Shown: in pieces, positions 28,568-45,023 of the stretch
How the letters are laid out: each line of letters starts with the position of its first letter
Numbering within the stretch: position 1 is the first letter of the stretch
Assembly: GCA_015709595.1 (NCBI GenBank)
Contig: CP054178.1
Span: forward strand, 1-64,000
DNA: 64,000 nucleotides
Source of the DNA: Phycisphaeraceae bacterium
GTDB lineage: Bacteria; Planctomycetota; Phycisphaerae; Phycisphaerales; SM1A02
Direction of reading: 5' to 3'
The notes under the pieces: model-generated
Databases searched by the model: none
What the model was told of the DNA's origin: nothing
The model's input: only the letters and a program-made list of their open reading frames with translations
Made by a program: the position numbers and the translations under genes

Positions 28568-29287
28568 TCATCGCACCTGTGAAAAGGTTCGTTCCTGCGG
28601 CGCAAGCGTGGCAAGGTTCAGGCCGCCCGCCGCATCCACGGTGAGTTCGAGGGATTGCCCCGCCCGTACCGGCTTGTAGACAACTTCGCCCTGGGCGACG
28701 CGGACGCCGTATTCGCGGGCCACATCAGGATTGGCGGCGATCTCCCAGAATCGCTTCCAGATGGCCTGCTCGAGCCGCCCCTCCGCGGAGGCGGCATACC
28801 CGGGTGGAATCGCCCCGGGTGTGTCGATGGGAAACCCATCTCGAGGCGCCATGCGGTCGGAGTAGACCCGGCGGAAGAGCACCAGCGTGCGCCCGCGGAA
28901 GGGATGCCCCAAGGCCACATCCTCGTGACTGAACTTGGCGGTCCACGTGTCGATGAAGAGGATGTCGCCGGGAATGGTGAACCGCTGGCGTGCGAGTTCG
29001 GCGCCCCGATCGTCCAGTTCGATGAAATCGAACGTCGTGTGGGTCACCTGGCCCGTTCCGTCCACGATCTGATCGGTGATGTGAACATGGGCGACCCGCC
29101 GGGAGCGCGACAGACGTTCGAGCATGGCCTCCTTCTCCGCCAGCCGCTTGGTCATGTCCGCGTTGATGGCTTCGAGTTCAGCGATCAGCCGCGCCTGCTG
29201 GCTGTCCCGCAGCATGTACATCGCCGCCAGCAGCACGCCGACGGCGATGGCGGAGATGACGACGGTTCGGAGGATGGAGGACAGCAT
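28568..29287 (-). CDS. Membrane-anchored coiled-coil protein, unknown
   Basis: A 239-residue protein. One N-terminal membrane span (ILRTVVISAIAVGVLLAAMY) is followed by a coiled-coil segment (ARLIAELEAINADMTKRLAE) and a beta-rich soluble domain (HITDQIVDGTGQVTHTTFDF) of no family I recognise. It resembles small planctomycete proteins with a single anchor and a periplasmic or cytoplasmic domain. The start is uncertain (no good ribosome binding site). It converges with cdsA. Confidence 0.6.
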   Translation of the reverse strand: MLSSILRTVVISAIAVGVLLAAMYMLRDSQQARLIAELEAINADMTKRLAEKEAMLERLSRSRRVAHVHITDQIVDGTGQVTHTTFDFIELDDRGAELARQRFTIPGDILFIDTWTAKFSHEDVALGHPFRGRTLVLFRRVYSDRMAPRDGFPIDTPGAIPPGYAASAEGRLEQAIWKRFWEIAANPDVAREYGVRVAQGEVVYKPVRAGQSLELTVDAAGGLNLATLAPQERTFSQVR

Positions 29288-29353
29288 GATGGCGCGCCGC
29301 AGGTGACATCGGCAAACATGCAGGGAGTCGGCCAATTGGCCGATAAATCCGGC

Positions 29354-32155
29354 GTGGAGACCGCTTACGCACGACGGTTGATGAGCACGCTGGGGGCAGC
29401 GGGGTTGTGGTTCGCGTTCGCCGCGTCGGCTGGCGGCGGGGATGGGACAGGCGTCCGGTCGGACAATGGACGCACCCGCGAAATCAGGCGATTCGACTTC
29501 GAAGAAGTGGATCGCAATCCCGTCTCCTTTCCCATCGACTTTTACCGGCTGGAGGACGGGGGGTTCGCATCCGACCCCGCCGCCGCGAGAGTGCGTGGCG
29601 GCTTTCCTCCCTTCGGAACAATGGGTTTCGCGGCTGACCAGGCCCGGTCAGGGCGATGGTCGTTCAAGTTCACGCTGGAAGGCGGCTCAATGGGAGCCGC
29701 GACCACGCCGCGATGCGCCCCGATCATTCCCGGCGGCGACTACCTGGTGACGGCGTGGGTGCGCACGGAAGGGCTGCGCCATGCCCGCGCCCGCGTCGCC
29801 GCTACGGTGTTTGACCAGCATCGACGTCCGATTCCCGGCTCGCACGTCACCGGAGAACTGCTCGACACCCGAGGCGCCTGGGCGCCGGTCGCGCTGCGCG
29901 TGCCCGCTCGGGAGGCCGAGGCCGCCATGCTTGGCGTGGAGTTGCTCCTGCTCCAGCCGGACCAGTGGTCCGGAAGGACGCGCGATCGGGACGAACCGAT
30001 GCTGGAGGATCTGTCCGGGTCCGTCTGGTTTGACGACGTGGCCATCTGGCACGTTCCGCGGTTCGACGTGCGTACAACCAGCGAGCCCGGCCGCGGCAAC
30101 CTGATCGTGCCGCCGGAGGAGCCAGGCCTGTTGATTCACGTCGGGGATCTCTCGGCGGAACCGCTCACGGTGAACGTGACAGTCGTGGACCTCTTCGATC
30201 GCATCGTGCATCAGGAGTCGTTCGAGGTGGCCAGCGGGCGAACCGATCGGCGCATCGCTCTTCCCGGACTGCGGTACGGGTGGTACCGAGCCACCATCGA
30301 TCTGAACGCGTCCCGTGACTGGTTGGGTCGGGATGTCGTCAACTTCGGATATCTGCCTCCCGGCGCCGTGATCGGCGCCGCGGGTTCTCAACGATCGACG
30401 ACGCTCGGCCTGGCCTTGGACGACGAGCCGACCATCGACGCGGCGGCGGCCGCGGCGCGCATCGCGGCGGAACTCGGCTGCACGCCGGTCATCCTGCCCG
30501 CGTGGGATGCCGCCCACAACGCCAGACGACCCAGAGAGGCGTTCGAACCCCTGCGGACCGCGGCGGAACGAATCAGTCAGGGCGGCGGCGAGGTCGTCTT
30601 CGCGCTGCCCCTCGTACCCAACGATCTGGCGTCCACCCTCGCCCTGCGGCGCGATGACGTGCTGGCCCTCTTCACCACCAATTCCGAGAGCACCCGTCCG
30701 AGCATGGAGCGGATGCTCTTCGTCCTCGGCCAGCGCGTGGCACGATGGCAGATCGGAGCCACGGGAGGCCAGGCGGCGCTGTGGCGCGACGATCTCGGCG
30801 TCATTCACGACCAGATGCACGCCACCCTGGCCCGCCTGGTGCCCGGCCCGATCGTGGTGTATCCGTGGTCCATCGAATACCCGATCAATTCCGGCGATCC
30901 GGTCTCCGCGATGTCGATGCACGTCCCGTGGAAGATTCCCCCAGCGGCGATTGGCGACCTGCTCCAGTCGTGGCCTGCGGGGACGGACATCACCCTTGTG
31001 ATTGAGCCGCTTCCAGAAGGCGACTTCACCAATGACGACCGGATCACGGACCTGACGCTCCGCGTGCTCCATGCCCGGCGCGCGGGAGCGGAACGACTGG
31101 TCATCGCCCGACCATGGACGCGTCTCGCCGAGACGGATGAGCCGATGCCCGAGCCGTGGCTTCCGGCCTGGCTGGAAGTCGGGCGACGGCTCCACGGGCT
31201 TTCATTCGCAGGTGAAGTTCCCCTGGGTCGAGGACTCAACTGCTGGCTCTTCGATGGTCCTTCAGGCCCGGTGCTGGCGGTCTGGAACAACAACGCCACC
31301 GGACCGGATGCGACACTCGCCGAACAGCTGGCGGCCGGACCGGTGACGGTCATCGACCCCCTGGGCAACCGGCGGACGGTTCCACTGGAGCGAGGCGTCC
31401 ATCGCGTGGCGCTCGAGGCGGGCCGACCGGTTTTCATCGGCGGGGTGGACTCGGGCCTGGCGAGATTCCGCCAGCGTTTCGCGCTGACGCCCGATTCAGC
31501 GCCATCCATGCAGCGGGAGCATCGGCATGAACTGGTGCTGGCCAACCCGTGGGGAACGACCATCTCCGGCGTGGTGCGGATCGTCGAGCCGCAGCACTGG
31601 CGGTTCACACCCACGCGCATTCCGTTCACGATCGCCGCCGGGGCCGAGGCGCGTCTGCCGTTCTCGCTCTCCTTCGGTCCGAACGAGTTGGCCGGCCCGA
31701 AGCGCATCGAGGCGGAGATCGAACTGACCTCCGGTCAGCGCAGCGCCTTCCGGGTTTCCACGTCGTTTGAACTGGGCGCGGCCGGTCTGGTGCTCGAACC
31801 GTTGTGGCGCGTGATGGGCGAACCGGGAACCTCGCCCACCGACCTGCTGATCACCGCCCACGTGACCAACACCGGCGATCAACCGGTTTCACTGGAATCC
31901 TTCGTGCGCGCCCCGGGCTATCCACGCATGAGCCGCAGCATCGCGCGACTGGGGCCCGGCGAGACCACCATCCGCACCTTCCACCTGGCCGGTGGAGCGA
32001 CGACGCTGGCCGGTCAGTCCGTCATCGTGGGTCTGACGGAAGTGGACGGTCCGCTTCGCCTGAACCGCGAGATCACCCTGCCCTCCCGCATGGTCAACGA
32101 TGATTCAGGCCAGGGCGCCTTGACGCGCGAGACCGGCGTTGATCCGCGGCATTGA
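29354..32155 (+). CDS. Large secreted multi-domain protein, glycosidase-like architecture
   Basis: About 933 residues, with a probable signal peptide (ARRLMSTLGAAGLWFAFAASA). Domains in order, judged by pattern: a jelly-roll-like carbohydrate-binding segment (residues about 40-250), a beta-sandwich (about 260-340), a TIM-barrel-like region (about 350-640) and two C-terminal beta-sandwich domains with NEW3/CARDB-like features (VTNTGDQPVSLESF). It is probably exported and binds or processes polysaccharide; no catalytic pair can be assigned. The GTG start at 29354 keeps the Arg-Arg before the hydrophobic core; ATG 29381 is the alternative. Confidence 0.6.
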   Translation: METAYARRLMSTLGAAGLWFAFAASAGGGDGTGVRSDNGRTREIRRFDFEEVDRNPVSFPIDFYRLEDGGFASDPAAARVRGGFPPFGTMGFAADQARSGRWSFKFTLEGGSMGAATTPRCAPIIPGGDYLVTAWVRTEGLRHARARVAATVFDQHRRPIPGSHVTGELLDTRGAWAPVALRVPAREAEAAMLGVELLLLQPDQWSGRTRDRDEPMLEDLSGSVWFDDVAIWHVPRFDVRTTSEPGRGNLIVPPEEPGLLIHVGDLSAEPLTVNVTVVDLFDRIVHQESFEVASGRTDRRIALPGLRYGWYRATIDLNASRDWLGRDVVNFGYLPPGAVIGAAGSQRSTTLGLALDDEPTIDAAAAAARIAAELGCTPVILPAWDAAHNARRPREAFEPLRTAAERISQGGGEVVFALPLVPNDLASTLALRRDDVLALFTTNSESTRPSMERMLFVLGQRVARWQIGATGGQAALWRDDLGVIHDQMHATLARLVPGPIVVYPWSIEYPINSGDPVSAMSMHVPWKIPPAAIGDLLQSWPAGTDITLVIEPLPEGDFTNDDRITDLTLRVLHARRAGAERLVIARPWTRLAETDEPMPEPWLPAWLEVGRRLHGLSFAGEVPLGRGLNCWLFDGPSGPVLAVWNNNATGPDATLAEQLAAGPVTVIDPLGNRRTVPLERGVHRVALEAGRPVFIGGVDSGLARFRQRFALTPDSAPSMQREHRHELVLANPWGTTISGVVRIVEPQHWRFTPTRIPFTIAAGAEARLPFSLSFGPNELAGPKRIEAEIELTSGQRSAFRVSTSFELGAAGLVLEPLWRVMGEPGTSPTDLLITAHVTNTGDQPVSLESFVRAPGYPRMSRSIARLGPGETTIRTFHLAGGATTLAGQSVIVGLTEVDGPLRLNREITLPSRMVNDDSGQGALTRETGVDPRH

Positions 32156-32780: not shown

Positions 32781-33072
32781 GAGGGGCGTTGGTTGATGGT
32801 AGTCGATTGTCGGATGTCGGTTGGCGCCCGCGAGTCACGCGGAATATGGAGATGGGCACGCGGAGTCATCGAGGAGCGGACATCAGCCATTGACGCCTTG
32901 AGTGACAGGCGTCCAGACCCTCCGATCAGACCCGCCATGGCACCTTCCCATCGGTTGGGATTGCAGCGCGTCACATCCACTGTCCGATATCAGATGCTGA
33001 CCGGTTGCAAGGATTGCGGCGAGCGTGACATCGGGCAACACTGCCGAAGCGTGCTCGCCCGAGGACGCATGG

Positions 33073-36000
33073 ATGACCCTCGCCGCGCCCCCACACACAT
33101 CCTCCCACTCATCGCCGCACGCATCGCCGGGTTCTGTCCCCGCCGCAACGACGCTCGAGCGCAACCTCTCGTGCCTGGGCGAGCGTCAGGCCGACCTGGC
33201 GAGGCGGCTGCGCGAGACGCAGGCGGCGAACATCGCGTTCGAGCAGGCGGCGGATGGACTCTTCACCGCCCAGCATCAGGGACGCTGGCTGGCCAGCCGA
33301 CACCGCCCCCGGGCGGAAGCCGAGCGAATCGCCGCTTCGGTGGACATCGTCGAACATGCCCTGTTCGTGGTCGGCGGCTTTGGGGTGGGGCATCATGTCG
33401 CGGAGCTGGCGAGGCGGATCGACCGGACCGGGGTCATCATCGTCTACGAGCCGGACCTCGGTCTGCTGCGGGCGGTGCTGGAGCGCATCGACCACTCTGA
33501 CTGGCTGCGCGGCGCACTGATCGTGTTCCTGACCGACCCGACCGATCGTGCCGCGCTGCCCCGGCGTCTGGCGGGGGCCGAATCCATCGTGGCGCAGGGC
33601 GTTGCGTTTCTTGAACATCCGGCGGATCGCGCCCGGCTGCAATCAGACCTTCCCGCGGTCGCCGACCTGGTGCGCGAGTTCGTCGCCGCCACGAAAACGA
33701 CGCTCCTGACCACGCTGGTGCGGGCGGCGGACACCACGCGCAACCTGCTCGGCAACCTGGATCATTACGCACTTGGGCCCGGCATTGCGCCCCTGCGCGA
33801 CGCCGCCAAGGACCGACCGGCGGTCGTCGTCTCCGCGGGCCCGTCGCTGCAACGCAATCTTGACGAACTCGCCAGGCCGGGCGTGCGCGACCGCTGCGTC
33901 ATCGTCGCGGTCCAGACCGTTCTCAAGCCACTGCTGCAGGCGGGCGTGCGTCCGCACTTCGTCACCGCGCTCGACTACCACGAGATTTCCCGCCGCTTCT
34001 ACGAAGGGTTGACCCCGTCCGATGTGCAGGACGTGACTTTGGTCGCCGACCCCAAGGCGCACCCGGCGATTCTCGACGCCTTCCCCGGCCGCGTGCGCTG
34101 CATGGCCAACGGCTTTCTCGACCGCGTGCTCGGACCGCTGGCGCGCGACATGGGCGCTCTGCCCGCGGGCGCCACCGTGGCGCACCTGTCGTTCTACCTG
34201 GCTCGACACCTCGGATGCAACCCCATCGCCTTGGTGGGGCAGGATCTCGGCTTCAGCGACGGGTTGTACTATGCGCGCGGCACCGCCATCGACGATGTGT
34301 GGGCGCCGGAACTCAATCCGTTCAACACCATGGAGATGATGGAGTGGTCGCGCATTGCACGGCACCGGCTGCATCTGCAGCGATTGACTGATCACGAGGG
34401 CAAGACCATTCTCTCCGACGCCCAGATGGTCGCCTACCTGCAGCAGTTTGAGCGTGATTTCGCCGAGGCGAGAGAACGGGGCGTTCGCGTCATCGACGCC
34501 AGCGAGGGCGGCGTGCGCAAGCAGCACGCAGAGTCGATGCGGCTGGCCGAACTGCTCGCCGCCCATGCCGCCACCCCCCTGCCGCACCTGCCCCCCGTGA
34601 GCGAGGACGAACGTCGCCCTGCGAACGCCGTCTCCGAGCGGTTGGCGGCCGTGCGGTGCGACGTGGCGCGCATCGCGTCGGTATCGGGTGAAACCGAGTC
34701 GATCCTGCGTGAGATACTGGAGCACCAGCGCGATGCATCGCGCATCAGCCGACTGTTCAAGCGGCTGGATGAACGGCGGCACGAGGTCGAGCGGATCTTC
34801 GAGGCCTTTGAACTGGTCAACCACGTCAATCAGATGGCCGTTTTCCGCCGCATGAAGCGTGATCGGCGCATTCATCTGTCGCGCGGCGCGGACGATCTGA
34901 CGAAGCAGCGTCTGCAGCTCGAGCGCGACCTGGACAACGTGGTCTGGACGCGCGACGCCGCCAGCGAGTTGGCGGCCATGCTCGATGACGCGATCGAAAC
35001 GGTCACTGGCGACGCGCGTCCCGGCGCCGCCCGTCGGCGGCACGTCACGCCGCCACGCCCGGCATCCGAACATGCGGCATCGGTCGAACTGGCCGGATCG
35101 GACGTTCGTACGCCGTCGCATGTCGCCGCCATGATCGCCATCGATCCGTCGCGGCGAGGCGGCGAGGCGTCGGCGCCCTGCGCGGCCACGCTCCACGGCC
35201 GCACCCTGCTGCAACGCACGCTGGAGCGAATCTCCCGCTCCCGGCGGCTCGATTCCATCATCCTGCTCGCGCCGATCGGCTTCGACGTGGAATCACTCCT
35301 CGACCGATCGCGAGTGACGCGACCGCTGCTCATCGAACGATGCGAGCAGTCCCCCTTCGGACCGGAGCGGGAGGCCATCGCTGCGGCGCGCCGCTGGTCT
35401 CGAACCTGCTGGCGAGGCGGAATCTCCGGAATGAGCGCCTGGGATGAGTCGATCGCCCCACAGGCGATGCACCACGTCATGGCGCAGCGCGGCGTCACGG
35501 CCGCGGTGATCGTCGCGCCGGTCTGGCCGCTGGTCGCCGTCGATGGGGAAGGCGGGATCGACTCGCTCGTCGAGCGCCATCTGCGGCATCCCAGCCAGCA
35601 CAACCTGGTGTTCAGTCAGCACCCGCCGGGATTCGGCGCCTGCCTCGTGAGCGCCTCCCTGATGCGGGAGCTGGCGTTGCGCAACCGGCTGGCCACGATC
35701 GGCGCGCTCCTCGTCTATCAGCCGCGCGCTCCGCAGGGCGACCCCATCGCCCGCGACGCCAACGTGCAGATTGATCATCGCGTCCGGGGCGCGCTGGGCC
35801 ACGGGTTGGTCCAGACGCCGGCTGACCGCGCCATGGTTGAGCGCCTTCCCGAGTCGCTTCTTGAGCGGGGCACGTCGGTGGAGATCGTTGAAGCACTTGA
35901 ACGGGCAAGCGCCGATGTCGACCCCGCCCTGGAGCATGTGATTCTGGAGATCACGACGGCCCGAGACGACGCCGGACATTACGCGACCCTGCGCGGCGGG

Positions 36001-36798
36001 AGCGGCGCCATCCATCACATGTCGCTCGACGAGGCGCGGCGCGTGATCGATCAGGTCGCGGCGCGGGGCGCAACCGCGCTCACCCTCGATGGACGGGGCG
36101 ATCCCCTGCTCCACCCGCGGTTCGCGGAGATCATCGAGCACGCCCGGAGCGTTGGTGTTGCCGGCGTCCACGTGCGCACAACCCTGCGGATGGACGCCTC
36201 GGCCATCGACCTGCTCGCCGCGCCGCCCATCGAGGTCGTCAGCGTTGATCTGCACGCCGATCGCGCCGCAACCTATCGCGTCATGATGGGCGATGACGGC
36301 TTCCGCCGGACCCTTGAGAATGTCGAGCGGCTGCTCCAGCACCGACGCCGTCTCACCGACCATCCCGGCAGCGCGGCGTTCTCGCTCCCCTGGGTCGTAC
36401 CGCGCCTGCTCCGCTGCCGCGCGACGTACGAGGACATCGAGTCATTCTTTGACCGATGGGTCAACGCGCTGGGGTGCGCGGTGATCGAAGGCGCGCCGGC
36501 GGCGCTGCGTCACGAGGGCGAACGCACCGATTCACTGCCGTTGGCGTGGGAGTCATCGTCGCTCGCTTCCGCCGCCCCGCCCGCCAAGGTTGTTCGGCGT
36601 GAACTGCTCCGCCGCATGATGATCCGCGTGGATGGAGCAGCCCCGATCTCGGAAGTGAATGCCTGGAGTTCCCCCGTCGCGGGCAACGTGTTCGAGCAGC
36701 CATTGCATGACGTGTGGCGGGAACTGGTCGAGCAGCGAACCGCGTGGATCGACGCCCCGGCTCGACGCATCGTTCCCTTGGGAATCGACCGACCATGA
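33073..36798 (+). CDS. Maf glycosyltransferase fused to SpsF-like and Cys-less radical-SAM/SPASM-like domains
   Basis: A 1,241-residue fusion. Residues about 30-600 are a Maf/DUF115 protein, the family that attaches nonulosonic acids to flagellin: VVVSAGPSLQRNLDEL near 250 and LVGQDLGFSDGLYYA near 390 are diagnostic. Residues about 680-930 look like an SpsF-type nucleotidyltransferase fold. Residues about 955-1235 follow the radical-SAM plus SPASM layout (LEITTARDDAGHYA, then DGRGDPLLHPRF at 1006-1017, then a C-terminal GNVFEQPLHDVWRE), but all three cluster cysteines are replaced (Arg964, Gly968, Ala971) and the SPASM cysteines are absent. The last two parts resemble spirochaete spiro-SPASM proteins. 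The ATG at 33073 has GAGG upstream. The neuA gene overlaps its stop as ATGA. Confidence 0.75.
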   Translation: MTLAAPPHTSSHSSPHASPGSVPAATTLERNLSCLGERQADLARRLRETQAANIAFEQAADGLFTAQHQGRWLASRHRPRAEAERIAASVDIVEHALFVVGGFGVGHHVAELARRIDRTGVIIVYEPDLGLLRAVLERIDHSDWLRGALIVFLTDPTDRAALPRRLAGAESIVAQGVAFLEHPADRARLQSDLPAVADLVREFVAATKTTLLTTLVRAADTTRNLLGNLDHYALGPGIAPLRDAAKDRPAVVVSAGPSLQRNLDELARPGVRDRCVIVAVQTVLKPLLQAGVRPHFVTALDYHEISRRFYEGLTPSDVQDVTLVADPKAHPAILDAFPGRVRCMANGFLDRVLGPLARDMGALPAGATVAHLSFYLARHLGCNPIALVGQDLGFSDGLYYARGTAIDDVWAPELNPFNTMEMMEWSRIARHRLHLQRLTDHEGKTILSDAQMVAYLQQFERDFAEARERGVRVIDASEGGVRKQHAESMRLAELLAAHAATPLPHLPPVSEDERRPANAVSERLAAVRCDVARIASVSGETESILREILEHQRDASRISRLFKRLDERRHEVERIFEAFELVNHVNQMAVFRRMKRDRRIHLSRGADDLTKQRLQLERDLDNVVWTRDAASELAAMLDDAIETVTGDARPGAARRRHVTPPRPASEHAASVELAGSDVRTPSHVAAMIAIDPSRRGGEASAPCAATLHGRTLLQRTLERISRSRRLDSIILLAPIGFDVESLLDRSRVTRPLLIERCEQSPFGPEREAIAAARRWSRTCWRGGISGMSAWDESIAPQAMHHVMAQRGVTAAVIVAPVWPLVAVDGEGGIDSLVERHLRHPSQHNLVFSQHPPGFGACLVSASLMRELALRNRLATIGALLVYQPRAPQGDPIARDANVQIDHRVRGALGHGLVQTPADRAMVERLPESLLERGTSVEIVEALERASADVDPALEHVILEITTARDDAGHYATLRGGSGAIHHMSLDEARRVIDQVAARGATALTLDGRGDPLLHPRFAEIIEHARSVGVAGVHVRTTLRMDASAIDLLAAPPIEVVSVDLHADRAATYRVMMGDDGFRRTLENVERLLQHRRRLTDHPGSAAFSLPWVVPRLLRCRATYEDIESFFDRWVNALGCAVIEGAPAALRHEGERTDSLPLAWESSSLASAAPPAKVVRRELLRRMMIRVDGAAPISEVNAWSSPVAGNVFEQPLHDVWRELVEQRTAWIDAPARRIVPLGIDRP

Positions 36799-37520
36799 TC
36801 GACTCGAAGCGCGTGCTCGCGGTGGTGATCGGCCGGGCCGGCAGCAAGGGACTGCCCGGCAAGAACGCCATGCGGCTGGCGGGCCGGCCTGCTGTCGCAT
36901 ATTCCGTGCGGGATGCGCTGCTGGCATGCACGGTGGACCGCGTCATCGTTTCAACCGACGGCGAACCAATCGCCCAGGTCGCCCGCGAGGCGGGCGCCGA
37001 GATCATCCAGCGGCCGCCCCACCTGGCCAACGACACGGCCACGGTGGATGCCGCGGTGCGGCACGCCGTCGAAACCGCCGCAGACCCCGCCGACATCATC
37101 GTGATTCTCTACGCCAACGTACCCGTTCGTCCCGACGGGCTGATTGATCGCGCCGTTGAGCGACTTGTTGAAACGCGCGCCGACAGCGTGCAGAGTTACG
37201 CCGACGTGGGCAAGCACCACCCCTGGTGGATGGTGAAGATCGATGATGACGGCCGCGTCAGCCCGAACGTACCCAACACGGTCTACCGCCGACAGGAACT
37301 GCCCCCGCTGTTCCTTCCGGACGGCGGCGTGATCGCGGTCACGCGCCAATCGCTGTTCCGCGTCGATCCCGCCCAGCCGCACGCCTTTCTCGGCACGGAC
37401 CGTCGAGGGATCATCAACCCGGCGGGGAGCGTGGTGGACATTGACTGCGAAGCGGACGCGCGGGTGGCTGAGGCGATGCTGCTCGATCGGGCCGTCCGCG
37501 CCGCGACCATTCATGCCTGA
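36795..37520 (+). CDS. neuA: CMP-nonulosonate cytidylyltransferase (NeuA-like)
   Basis: A 241-residue enzyme that activates a sialic-type acid with CTP. The nucleotide-binding start VIGRAGSKGLPGKNA matches the family's RxGSKxxPxKN loop; VIVSTDGEPIAQVA and VDIDCEADARVAE are further conserved parts (the latter binds metal and sugar). Whether the acid is neuraminic, legionaminic or pseudaminic is not fixed by the sequence. Its ATG overlaps the stop of the Maf fusion by four bases, linking them, and neuB follows 27 bases later. Confidence 0.85.
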   Translation: MIDSKRVLAVVIGRAGSKGLPGKNAMRLAGRPAVAYSVRDALLACTVDRVIVSTDGEPIAQVAREAGAEIIQRPPHLANDTATVDAAVRHAVETAADPADIIVILYANVPVRPDGLIDRAVERLVETRADSVQSYADVGKHHPWWMVKIDDDGRVSPNVPNTVYRRQELPPLFLPDGGVIAVTRQSLFRVDPAQPHAFLGTDRRGIINPAGSVVDIDCEADARVAEAMLLDRAVRAATIHA

Positions 37521-37547: not shown

Positions 37548-38606
37548 ATGCGCATCGGTTCACGGGACATCGGGGTCGGGCTTCGGCCCTACGTGATCGC
37601 CGAAGTGGGCGTCAACCACGATGGTGATCCCGCACGCGCGGTTTCGCTCATTGAGGCCGCCGCCCGGGCCGGCGCCGATGCGGTCAAATTCCAGTGCTTC
37701 CGCGCCGACCTGCTGCTGAGCGGCGCAGCGCGTCTGGCCTTGTATCAGCGCGCCGCGGGGGCGCGTGATCCCTTCGACCTGCTTTCGAAGCTGGAGCTTG
37801 ACGAGGCAGCGCTGTCGCAGGCGATTGATCGGGCGCATGCCCTCGACCTGCATGCGATCGTCACGGTGTTTTCCGTCGAGCTGGTCGAGTCAATGGCTCG
37901 ACTGGGATGGGACGCCTTCAAGACCGCCTCGCCGGACATCATCAACAAGCCGCTCATCGACTCGCTGCTCGACCTCGGGCGGCCCCTGATCCTCAGCACC
38001 GGCGCGGCGACAGTCGCCGAGATCGAGCGCGCGCTTGGCTGGGTTCATGGCGCCGCCAACGTCGCATTGATGCAGTGCGTGAGCGCCTATCCAACGCCGG
38101 ACTGCTCGGCAGCCCTGGGTGGAATTCGCGCCTTGTCGAGACTGACGGATGCTCCGATCGGCTACAGCGACCACACGAGCGCCATCGACACCGGCGCCTT
38201 GGCGGTGGCGTCAGGCGCCCGCCTGCTGGAGAAGCACCTGACGCATGACCGGGCTGCTCCCGGCCCGGATCACGCAGCGTCCCTTGATCCGGCACAGTTC
38301 GCCGAGTACGTCCGCCTGGCCCGCCGCGCGTGGGAGATGCTGGGGGCTGAAGCCAAGCTCGTCCTGCCCATTGAGGGCGACGTGCGGGAGGTTTCTCGCC
38401 AGTCCATCGTCACCGCACGAGCGATGGCGCGTGGACAGCGCCTGTCGCGCGAGGACGTCACCATCAAGCGGCCCGGCGGCGGGATCGAACCCTGGCGGCT
38501 GGAGGAACTGATCGGTCTGGTTGCGGCACGCGATCTTCCCGCGGATAGGCCGATCCTGCCGGGCGACCTATCGTGCGCGCCGGCGCCGGTCGCGTTGAGC
38601 CGGTAA
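37548..38606 (+). CDS. neuB: Sialic-acid-type synthase (NeuB-like)
   Basis: A 352-residue synthase that condenses phosphoenolpyruvate with an N-acetylated hexosamine to form a nine-carbon nonulosonic acid. The TIM barrel shows VIAEVGVNHDGD, DAVKFQCF, FKTASPDIINKPLI, QCVSAYPTP and IGYSDHTSAIDTGALAVA, all typical. The last 65 residues are the antifreeze-like SAF domain (REVSRQSIVTARAMARGQRL). Length is normal. The start is ATG 37548 in a short intergenic gap. Confidence 0.92.
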   Translation: MRIGSRDIGVGLRPYVIAEVGVNHDGDPARAVSLIEAAARAGADAVKFQCFRADLLLSGAARLALYQRAAGARDPFDLLSKLELDEAALSQAIDRAHALDLHAIVTVFSVELVESMARLGWDAFKTASPDIINKPLIDSLLDLGRPLILSTGAATVAEIERALGWVHGAANVALMQCVSAYPTPDCSAALGGIRALSRLTDAPIGYSDHTSAIDTGALAVASGARLLEKHLTHDRAAPGPDHAASLDPAQFAEYVRLARRAWEMLGAEAKLVLPIEGDVREVSRQSIVTARAMARGQRLSREDVTIKRPGGGIEPWRLEELIGLVAARDLPADRPILPGDLSCAPAPVALSR

Positions 38607-38624: not shown

Positions 38625-39746
38625 ATGGACGCGGATGGATGCAGACGAATCGCGGTGGTGACCGGCTCCCGGGCGGAGTTCGGGCTGCTGCGTCCACTGA
38701 TGCGCGCCATCCGCAAGTACCGTGACCTGAAGCTTCAGACAATCGTCACCGGCACGCATCTGCTGCCGCCTCATCGCACGATGGACGAGGTCGCCTCGGA
38801 GTTCTCCGTCGACGCGACCGTGGAGATGCAGCGTCCGGGCGAGACCGGACGCTTCGCCGACGCCCGCGCCATGGGCCGGGGCGTGATCGGCATCGCCGAG
38901 CACCTGGAGCGACTGAAGCCCGACGTCGTCGTCGTGCTGGGTGACCGTATCGAGGCGTTCGCCGGCGCGGCCGCGGGATCAATCGCGGGCATTCGCGTCG
39001 CTCACATCCACGGCGGCGACCGGGCGGAAGGAATCGCCGATGAATCCATCCGTCACGCCGTCACCAAGCTGGCTCACATTCACTTCGTCGCCACGGCGCG
39101 ATCGGCGGAACGTGTGATCGCCATGGGCGAGGAACCGCGGACGGTTCACCTGGTGGGGTCTCCGGCGCTGGATGATCTGCCCGGCTTTCCGCCGCTGACC
39201 GATGAGGCCTACACAGCACTCGGCTCGCCGGAGATCGTCGTCCTGCTGCATCCGCTCGGTCGAGGCGAGCGGGTGGAGCATGACATCGCTCGCGGGATCC
39301 TGAGCGCGTGCATGGATGCCGGTCGCGTCCTGGTCCTGGACCCCAACTTCGACCCGGGGCGTGAAGGGATCGTCAAGGCCATCGAGTCGCTCAAGTGCCC
39401 TCGCCGGACTCACCTGCCCAGGGCGCAATTCATCGGGTTGCTCAAACGTGTGCGGCTGATCGTGGGCAACTCCAGCGCGGGGCTGATTGAGTGTGCGGCG
39501 CTTCGGCTGCCGTGCGTCAACGTCGGCTCGCGCCAGGCGGGGCGCGAGCGGGCGGGCAACGTGTTCGACGTGGAGGACGACCGCGACGACTCCGCCGTGG
39601 CCAAGGCCGTTCTGAAGGCCCTCAACTCCCCTCGCAGCACGGGTCGCCACCCCTATGGCGAGGGACGTTCGGGGGAGCGCATGGCGTCGATCCTGGCTTC
39701 ATTCGAACCGGCGGCGCATCCGCTGAACAAGCGCATTTCCTACTGA
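38625..39746 (+). CDS. neuC: UDP-N-acetylglucosamine 2-epimerase, hydrolysing (NeuC-like)
   Basis: A 373-residue GT-B fold enzyme releasing N-acetylmannosamine (or a related 2-epimer) for NeuB. TGSRAEFGLLRPLM at the N-terminus, VVVLGDRIEAFAGA, HIHGGDRAEGIADESIRHA and GNSSAGLIECAALRLPCVNV are the conserved segments. It closes the four-gene operon that starts with the Maf fusion, with only 18 bases from neuB. NeuC versus the legionaminic homologue LegG cannot be told apart; the other Leg enzymes are not present here. Confidence 0.87.
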   Translation: MDADGCRRIAVVTGSRAEFGLLRPLMRAIRKYRDLKLQTIVTGTHLLPPHRTMDEVASEFSVDATVEMQRPGETGRFADARAMGRGVIGIAEHLERLKPDVVVVLGDRIEAFAGAAAGSIAGIRVAHIHGGDRAEGIADESIRHAVTKLAHIHFVATARSAERVIAMGEEPRTVHLVGSPALDDLPGFPPLTDEAYTALGSPEIVVLLHPLGRGERVEHDIARGILSACMDAGRVLVLDPNFDPGREGIVKAIESLKCPRRTHLPRAQFIGLLKRVRLIVGNSSAGLIECAALRLPCVNVGSRQAGRERAGNVFDVEDDRDDSAVAKAVLKALNSPRSTGRHPYGEGRSGERMASILASFEPAAHPLNKRISY

Positions 39747-39898: not shown

Positions 39899-40792
39899 AT
39901 GTCCACCATCACGCAAGACAAGGCCGCCGTCGTCGCCTCGACGATCCAGTCGATCTCGCACATCGCCACGCTGCCCGAGATCACGCTCAAGATCATCGAG
40001 TTGGTGGAAGACCCATCGAGCACCGCGCAGGATCTGCACGCCGTCATTTCCAATGATCCGGCGCTGTGCAGCCGCATCCTCAAAGTCGTCAACAGTGCGT
40101 TCTACGGTCTGCCCCGGCAGATCGGGTCGATCAACCGGGCCATCGTGCTGCTGGGGCTGAACGCGGTGAAGAACATCGCCATCGCCGCCTCGCTGGCCAA
40201 GCTGTTCCGCGGCGGCGATCTCTGCGATCGCTTCTCGGCGCGTGACCTGTGGATGCACTCGATCGCCTCCGCCACCTGCGCCAAGCTCATCGCCGATCAG
40301 CTCAAGATGGGGCTGCCGGACGAGGCCTTCCTCGCCGGGCTGATCCACGACATCGGCATCGTGGTCGAGTTTCAGAGCGACCGTCACAAGCTGGCGGACG
40401 TCTTCGCCCGCATGACGTACGACGCCAACGGCGTGCCGCAGTCCAACATGCTGGACGTGGAGACCGAGGTGTTCGGCGCCAACCACCAGGACTTCGGCGC
40501 CGGGTTGTGCGAGGCGTGGAAGTTCCCCAAGTCGTTCGGGTTCGTCGCCGGCCATCACCACAACCCGAAGGGGCTGCCGGAGCCCAACCGCCCGCTGGCA
40601 TGGGTGGTGTTCCTGGCGGATCGAATCGTCGCCGAACTGGAGCGCGGCTTCCGCGGCGACCTCGCCGACACGGGCATTCCCGCCGACGCGATGAGCGCCA
40701 TCGGGCTGACCGGCGAGCACCTGAATGAGATTCGACGCCGGCTCCCCGAGGCGATCGCGGACGTGGAGGCGACCTTCTCTACGTCCGGCTGA
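39899..40792 (+). CDS. HDOD domain signalling protein
   Basis: A 297-residue protein consisting mainly of an HDOD domain, a degenerate HD hydrolase module used in signalling and stress regulation. ILKVVNSAFYGLPRQIGSI and AIVLLGLNAVKNIAIA are the HDOD hallmarks; LAGLIHDIG retains an HD pair, and HHH appears near residue 220. No receiver or GGDEF domain is attached. The ATG is separated from neuC by about 150 bases with no gene. Confidence 0.88.
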   Translation: MSTITQDKAAVVASTIQSISHIATLPEITLKIIELVEDPSSTAQDLHAVISNDPALCSRILKVVNSAFYGLPRQIGSINRAIVLLGLNAVKNIAIAASLAKLFRGGDLCDRFSARDLWMHSIASATCAKLIADQLKMGLPDEAFLAGLIHDIGIVVEFQSDRHKLADVFARMTYDANGVPQSNMLDVETEVFGANHQDFGAGLCEAWKFPKSFGFVAGHHHNPKGLPEPNRPLAWVVFLADRIVAELERGFRGDLADTGIPADAMSAIGLTGEHLNEIRRRLPEAIADVEATFSTSG

Positions 40793-44241: not shown

Positions 44242-44340
44242 GGCATAACGAAAGGAAGGGATTCCGTTCTGCCGGGCAGGGATTTCGTTATGCCAGGCAG
44301 GGATTCTGTTATGCCAGGCAGGGATTTCGTGATGCGGGAG
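44242..44340. repeat. 21-bp tandem repeats with an inverted copy
   Basis: Four tandem units of about 21 bases (consensus GGGATTTCGTTATGCCAGGCA) start at 44258, 44279, 44300 and 44321. Just before them GGCATAACGAAA (44242-44253) is an inverted copy of the central TTTCGTTATGCC, so a hairpin can form. It lies between nuoA and the larger repeat array. Confidence 0.75.
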
Positions 44341-44433
44341 TGCGTTTTCGGGCCGCTGTGAAGGGTTTTGCAGGTATTCGGACGGAGCGCTTCAGTCGCG
44401 GCGGGGCGGCGCCGATATCAGTCGCATGGCCGG

Positions 44434-45010
44434 AAGGAATCCGCCCCCCATGTCGAACACGGAGCGGCAGCGGCTGTTCCGCGAGCGCTCACGCCTCGCT
44501 CACGCCTCCGCTCCCTCACGGTCGCGGCTCGCTGTCCCGCGAGCGCTCACGTCCTCGCTCACGCCTCCGCTCCCTCACGGTCGCGGCTCGCTGTCCCGCT
44601 CACGCTCACGTCCTCGCTCACGCCTCCGCTCCTCACGGTCGCGGCTCGCTGTTCCGCGAGCGCTCACGCCTCGCTCACGCCAAGGAATCCGCCCCCCATG
44701 TCGAACACGGAGCGGCAGCGGCTGTTCCGCGAGCGCTCACGCCTCGCTCACGCCTCCGCTCCCTCACGGTCGCGGCTCGCTGTCCCGCGAGCGCTCACGT
44801 CCTCGCTCACGCCTCCGCTCCCTCACGGTCGCGGCTCGCTGTCCCGCTCACGCTCACGTCCTCGCTCACGCCTCCGCTCCCTCACGGTCGCGGCTCGCTC
44901 ACGTCCTCGCTCACGCCTCGCTCACGCCTCCGCTCCCTCACGGTCGCGGCTCGCTCACGTCCTCGCTCACGGTCGCGGCTCGCTGTCCCGCTCACGGTCG
45001 CGTCTCGCTG
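44434..45010. repeat. Complex repeat array of CACGGTCGCGGCTCGCT units
   Basis: The field is built from variants of CTCCCTCACGGTCGCGGCTCGCT separated by GTCCCG, GAGCGCTCACG and TCCTCGCTCACGCC pieces. A stretch of about 200 bases beginning AAGGAATCCG at 44434 is duplicated at 44682 (248-base offset), nearly exact except for one base missing near 44632. The core unit also occurs three times at 55119-55250. Open frames across it encode only repetitive Ser/Arg/Ala/Leu text and are not genes. It ends just before the stop of the M28 peptidase. Confidence 0.8.
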
Positions 45011-45023
45011 ACCCGCCCGCGGC

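Follow-up and report, generated by a model that had tools for sequence, protein, structure and literature searches.

A planctomycete Maf-type glycosyltransferase fused to SpsF-like and radical SAM/SPASM-like domains that lack the cluster cysteines

Introduction

The cluster is what defines a radical SAM protein, and few radical SAM folds kept by selection without it are, to our knowledge, well documented. Furthermore, NeuC, NeuB and NeuA lead to CMP-nonulosonate and Maf transfers the sugar to flagellin, and acceptor selection in this Maf-dependent glycosylation is poorly understood. In the present study, we analysed a gene in the first 64,000 nucleotides of a contig of a Phycisphaeraceae bacterium (the window), where a Maf-type glycosyltransferase carries a long C-terminal tail of radical SAM/SPASM-like fold without any of the cluster cysteines. 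The question raised by this locus is what such a tail is kept for, where it came from and in which order its clusters were lost.

Results

The open reading frame encodes a Maf-type glycosyltransferase followed by SpsF-like and radical SAM/SPASM-like domains. This fusion had been proposed in the initial annotation, and the coordinates, the Pfam matches and the fold matches agree on it. Its parts are as follows.

33073..36798, forward strand: complete fusion protein of 1241 amino acids (Maf, SpsF-like, radical SAM-like and SPASM-remnant parts); open reading frame, full length kept in about 30 genomes
33073..35022, forward strand: Maf glycosyltransferase part, residues 1-650 (PF01973, NF050051, fold match 5mu5)
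35017..35115, forward strand: low-confidence linker between Maf and tail, about residues 649-681 (pLDDT below 50 over most of model residues 628-658)
35116..35886, forward strand: SpsF-like (cytidylyltransferase-fold) domain without CTP signature, residues 682-938 (6oew fold match)
35920..36522, forward strand: radical SAM-like barrel, residues 950-1150 (PF04055; MoaA and SuiB fold matches)
35962..35985, forward strand: position of the lost CX3CX2C motif, R964, G968 and A971 (alignment)
36091..36117, forward strand: kept GRGDPLLHP, residues 1007-1015, counterpart of the SAM-contacting GGE region (43-tail alignment)
36565..36747, forward strand: SPASM remnant, residues 1165-1225, with all cluster cysteines gone (R1175, S1193, C-terminal CxxC absent)

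An in-frame GTG lies 5' of the reading frame at 33025, and the homologue alignments begin at about residue 20. The Maf core was matched by Pfam MptE-like PF01973 at residues 224-396 (E 7.6e-35, 120.6 bits against a cut-off of 34.6) and the Maf part by the PseD domain model NF050051 (E 6.5e-14). The Maf N-terminal domain PF20157 reached 17.8 bits in the window protein (cut-off 23.5) and 38.4 bits in a split relative (L101). In the tail, Pfam Radical_SAM PF04055 matched residues 977-1090 (E 2.3e-8, 34.8 bits against a cut-off of 29.5). Structure prediction of the tail by AlphaFold2 (pLDDT 90.2, pTM 0.91) gave no fold other than the expected one: the SpsF-like domain matched the SpsF-type cytidylyltransferase 6oew (Z 19.6, rmsd 3.0, 226 residues), and residues 950-1225 matched SuiB (Z 21.3), MoaA (Z 20.1-20.2) and SkfB (Z 19.7). 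The model and these PDB matches bear out the proposal that the fold is kept without a [4Fe-4S] cluster. The full-length model (pLDDT 87.2, pTM 0.86) had the Maf structure 5mu5 as its top Foldseek match in the PDB (E 2.2e-19), and its confidence values suggest a defined placement of the tail against Maf.

The segments LEITT(A)R...G...A and GRGDPLLHP lie where the first reading of the sequence had put them, and R964, G968 and A971 do occupy the CX3CX2C positions. Not one of the three radical SAM cysteines was present when 43 tails were aligned, the window tail and 42 from public genomes (0/3 in 43/43). The same absence was seen by inspection in 46 tails of another genome set, and stand-alone relatives of the tail elsewhere in Planctomycetota are also without CX3CX2C. 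No replacement set of cysteines is fixed across the aligned tails in the radical SAM-like part, so that an alternative cluster motif there was ruled out. Since the tail is without the radical SAM cluster, no radical SAM chemistry is possible. The GxGDPLLHP loop is mostly kept among the tails and gone in some fused forms; G1007, G1009, P1011, L1012 and H1014 are conserved in at least 80% of the 43. As separate observations, tails of one family (f2: L034, L037, L038, L040) are reduced further, having lost both the SPASM end and the GDPLLHP loop, and cysteines at 829, 855/857 and 897 of the SpsF-like part (window 35557-35763) recur variably in many Phycisphaerales tails, the window protein having C857 only.

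The SPASM cysteines have a different history. All four are present in each of the 16 split-gene tails (16/16), whereas the 27 tails of the fused clade hold none in 24 cases, one in two and two in one; this count includes L126, which is cut by a contig end and was assigned to the fused forms by clade. The window protein has none of the four (0/4), as had been noticed at the outset; it has R1175 and S1193, and the C-terminal CxxC is missing. Regarding homologues with intact cysteines, none with the radical SAM set was found, but the split relatives do hold a full SPASM set. Rooted on canonical radical SAM proteins, the tree unites all pseudo-radical SAM tails in one group (SH-aLRT 100), inside which the fused Phycisphaerales forms are a single clade (SH-aLRT 100). 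By this topology, loss of the radical cluster preceded the fusion. The SPASM loss and the fusion to Maf fall on the same branch, and the tree sets no order between these two. Thus, the radical cluster was lost first, throughout the phylum, and the SPASM cluster later, in one clade that was also fused to Maf. An independent Maf-tail fusion outside Phycisphaerales (L091 7604-11125, reverse strand; the same reading frame as L067) has all four SPASM cysteines, so that fusion by itself is not the cause of SPASM loss.

In the SpsF-like domain, the canonical nucleotide-binding signature RxGSxRLPxK is lost in every aligned tail. Where 6oew reads QARMGSTRLPGK, the tails mostly have Asp at the Arg position and no Lys. 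Near-invariant among the tails are R773, WRGG (780-783), DE (791-792), PG (852-853), Y882 and D890. Judged by these residues, the domain likely has a ligand pocket but is unlikely to perform CTP chemistry; nucleotidyl transfer by the tail is very probably absent. We rejected a reading of 6oew (from Leptospira) as part of a spiro-SPASM protein, since its SpsF signature is intact.

About 30 genomes from the same family and order hold the full-length fusion at 39-52% identity, likewise without cysteines. Dozens of independent genomes share this state, which rules out chance, an assembly error and the sequencing artefact that the initial annotation had considered. Throughout Phycisphaerales the protein is found either fused or split, and elsewhere in Planctomycetota split; a contig search with the tail-family alignment gave matches in planctomycetes only. 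The fusion is an order-wide form derived from a phylum-wide pair of genes for Maf and a pseudo-radical SAM/SPASM protein. Among close relatives, dN/dS was 0.08-0.20 for the SpsF-like part, 0.10-0.19 for the radical SAM-like part and 0.11-0.25 for Maf, rough values at a dS of about 1 or more. Purifying selection acts on the tail (dN/dS about 0.1-0.2, like Maf), which is not in decay. Two further loci, L045 2071-4950 and L047 1586-4798 (relatives G014 and G024), have a well-kept tail beside a short or strongly diverged Maf half; flagellin was not detected in G024.

Downstream of the fusion lie the following genes.

36795..37520, forward strand: neuA/pseF-type CMP-nonulosonate cytidylyltransferase (profile matches; CTP signature GRAGSKGLPGKN kept)
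37548..38606, forward strand: neuB, nonulosonic acid synthase (TIGR03569, 293 bits; PF03102, E 1.8e-63)
38625..39746, forward strand: neuC, UDP-GlcNAc 2-epimerase (TIGR03568, 317.7 bits, cut-off 235.9)
39899..40792, forward strand: HDOD-domain protein (PF08668, E 1.1e-53)

By these profile matches to neuA, neuB and neuC, what had been called a sugar-acid operon is a nonulosonic (sialic-acid-type) operon. The ATG of neuA overlaps the stop codon of the fusion gene (ATGA). Among 44 related loci, NeuA/NeuB-type genes were present in 35 and NeuC in 29, and the HDOD gene, a conserved neighbour, was the next gene after the neu genes in 18; all were nearly always on the same strand. Maf is fused to the tail or directly upstream of it in 42 of 43 loci, usually with neuA-neuB-neuC behind, and also in most other planctomycete loci with a complete tail. 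In 61 relatives, flagellin and the Maf-tail protein occurred together in 46 and were both absent in 11, with flagellin only in three and the protein only in one (Fisher p 1e-8, a statistic that ignores phylogeny). The source genome of the window has flagellin genes (three matches).

Two other features of the window were recorded. An open reading frame of at least 1166 amino acids (28583-32152, forward strand) lies upstream of the fusion gene and is conserved at the corresponding position of about nine related loci; it gave no Pfam or NCBIfam match. Dense GC-rich tandem repeats lie between genes at 44253-45016, with a 59-base unit containing CTCACGGTCGCGGCTC and a 248-base duplication (96% alike), and long spurious open reading frames cross these repeats.

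Discussion

The explanation that we favour, and consider reasonably probable, is that the fusion is a nonulosonate flagellin O-glycosyltransferase whose C-terminal double pseudoenzyme serves as a binding or docking module. In this mechanism, NeuC, NeuB and NeuA would supply the CMP-activated sugar and the Maf half would move it onto flagellin. The ancestor of the tail would have been a separate SpsF-like/radical SAM/SPASM protein, already encoded beside Maf, that had lost its radical SAM cluster before the planctomycete family diversified and that, as a separate protein, kept a single four-cysteine SPASM cluster. In one Phycisphaerales clade the tail would then have been fused to Maf, with loss of the SPASM cluster too. 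The present tail would most likely be a non-catalytic module that brings flagellin to the active site of Maf or, with lower probability, holds the CMP-sugar donor there. We infer flagellin as the substrate, the binding role and the replacement of a two-protein complex by the fusion from the data above. Acceptor binding is favoured over donor binding because nearly half of the tail has a fold best matched by peptide-modifying radical SAM/SPASM enzymes. This preference is weak, as the sugar-modifying radical SAM enzymes DesII, BlsE and BtrN match the predicted model almost as well. In addition, R773, WRGG, DE, D890 and the GDPLLHP loop also fit a small-ligand site or an enzyme activity, which we count against our explanation.

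A donor-side role is the alternative that survives best, although we regard it as rather unlikely. Here the SpsF-like pocket would bind CMP-nonulosonate or a precursor and channel it from NeuA to Maf. Its fold is near that of CMP-sugar synthetases (CMP-KDO and CMP-Pse synthetases, Z 14-15) and holds invariant polar residues, BlsE and DesII, which modify sugar nucleotides, are among the top fold matches of the tail, and neuA adjoins the gene in most loci, here with the ATGA overlap that points to translational coupling. However, RxGSxRLPxK has been lost in every tail and is intact in the NeuA of the operon. It is improbable that the tail is still an enzyme, acting by non-radical chemistry of the barrel or at a changed nucleotidyltransferase site and, for instance, modifying the sugar ahead of its transfer; strong purifying selection and the conserved pockets, GDPLLHP included, would be in keeping with such an activity, but both catalytic signatures are lost, no fixed cysteine set stands in place of the cluster in the radical SAM-like part, and the loop is gone in some fused forms. 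That the tail is a decaying passenger of an accidental fusion is highly improbable, for despite the stepwise loss of cluster ligands and a C-terminus further shortened in one branch, its dN/dS equals that of the Maf half, it is maintained across an order at 30-50% identity, and the separate gene is kept beside Maf across the phylum.

As a wider and more tentative suggestion, which goes beyond the docking role favoured above, a former radical SAM enzyme joined to a former nucleotide-sugar enzyme could be the phylum-wide substrate-recognition half of a flagellin O-glycosylation machine, in which the SPASM cluster would be only structural or for docking in the two-protein form and was dropped in the main fused clade. 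The tail also suggests a second component of Maf-dependent glycosylation of flagellin that had gone unrecognised. Furthermore, the order of the losses can be read from a tree, and intact intermediates exist for biochemistry.

The individual parts of the protein are all known types. Neither the literature searched nor curated family models described their combination, its conservation across an order or the ordered loss of clusters. The arrangement had been suggested to be new, and no paper or family model with such a Maf fusion was found, but it is order-wide and older than one odd protein. Literature searches for spiro-SPASM or radical SAM together with flagellin glycosylation gave nothing relevant, and a search on flagellin glycosylation in Planctomycetota, a topic that seems hardly studied, gave no paper.

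Among known systems, the Maf/PseD flagellin glycosyltransferases (PF01973, PF20157; 5mu5) are alike in core domain, fold and an operon setting with nonulosonic acid genes and flagellin, whereas the window protein has about 560 extra C-terminal residues, SpsF-like and radical SAM/SPASM-like. The fold of residues 682-938 is shared with SpsF-type cytidylyltransferases (6oew), from which the tail differs by its replaced signature (Asp for Arg, no Lys). The fold of residues 950-1225 is shared with radical SAM/SPASM enzymes (SuiB, SkfB, MoaA, BtrN, DesII, BlsE); unlike these, the tail has neither CX3CX2C nor SPASM cysteines, and no clusters are expected. The pseudo-SAM/SPASM model TIGR04347, which from its name we take to be a radical SAM-fold family regarded as non-radical, gave a weak match (16.5 bits), and we know of no link between it and Maf.

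The NCBIfam spiro-SPASM model TIGR04321 gave a significant partial match over the radical SAM and SPASM parts (residues 981-1218, E 1e-10), but its 41 bits are far under the cut-off of 250. Split relatives scored up to 159 bits, and the cut-off was reached in none of 392 planctomycete genomes. The window protein is therefore related to this family but not a member by the family's own cut-off, and its clade differs by the fusion to Maf with loss of all cluster cysteines. We also probed the model with altered planctomycete sequences. Adding CX3CX2C to a split tail raised its score by 8.2 bits, compared with 18-20 bits in two true radical SAM models; removing the motif from a canonical protein cost 8.6 bits versus 17, and removing the four SPASM cysteines cost 25.7 bits. 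This suggests that the spirochaete family behind TIGR04321 may be mixed for the radical SAM cysteines; if so, part of what we describe could already be known to the curators of that family. In spirochaete plasmid records, every protein that came up was annotated as an ordinary radical SAM protein.

Two flagellin glycosylation systems offer a parallel in the way of working. In Aeromonas, direct binding of flagellin by Maf1 takes place in the cytoplasm (PMC4065374). The modular cytoplasmic flagellin glycosyltransferase FlmG of Caulobacter owes its specificity to a fused domain that binds flagellin (PMC7591256). FlmG is built with N-terminal TPRs and a GT-B domain, and no homology is claimed; its separate substrate-binding domain serves as an analogy for a planctomycete tail that would present flagellin to Maf.
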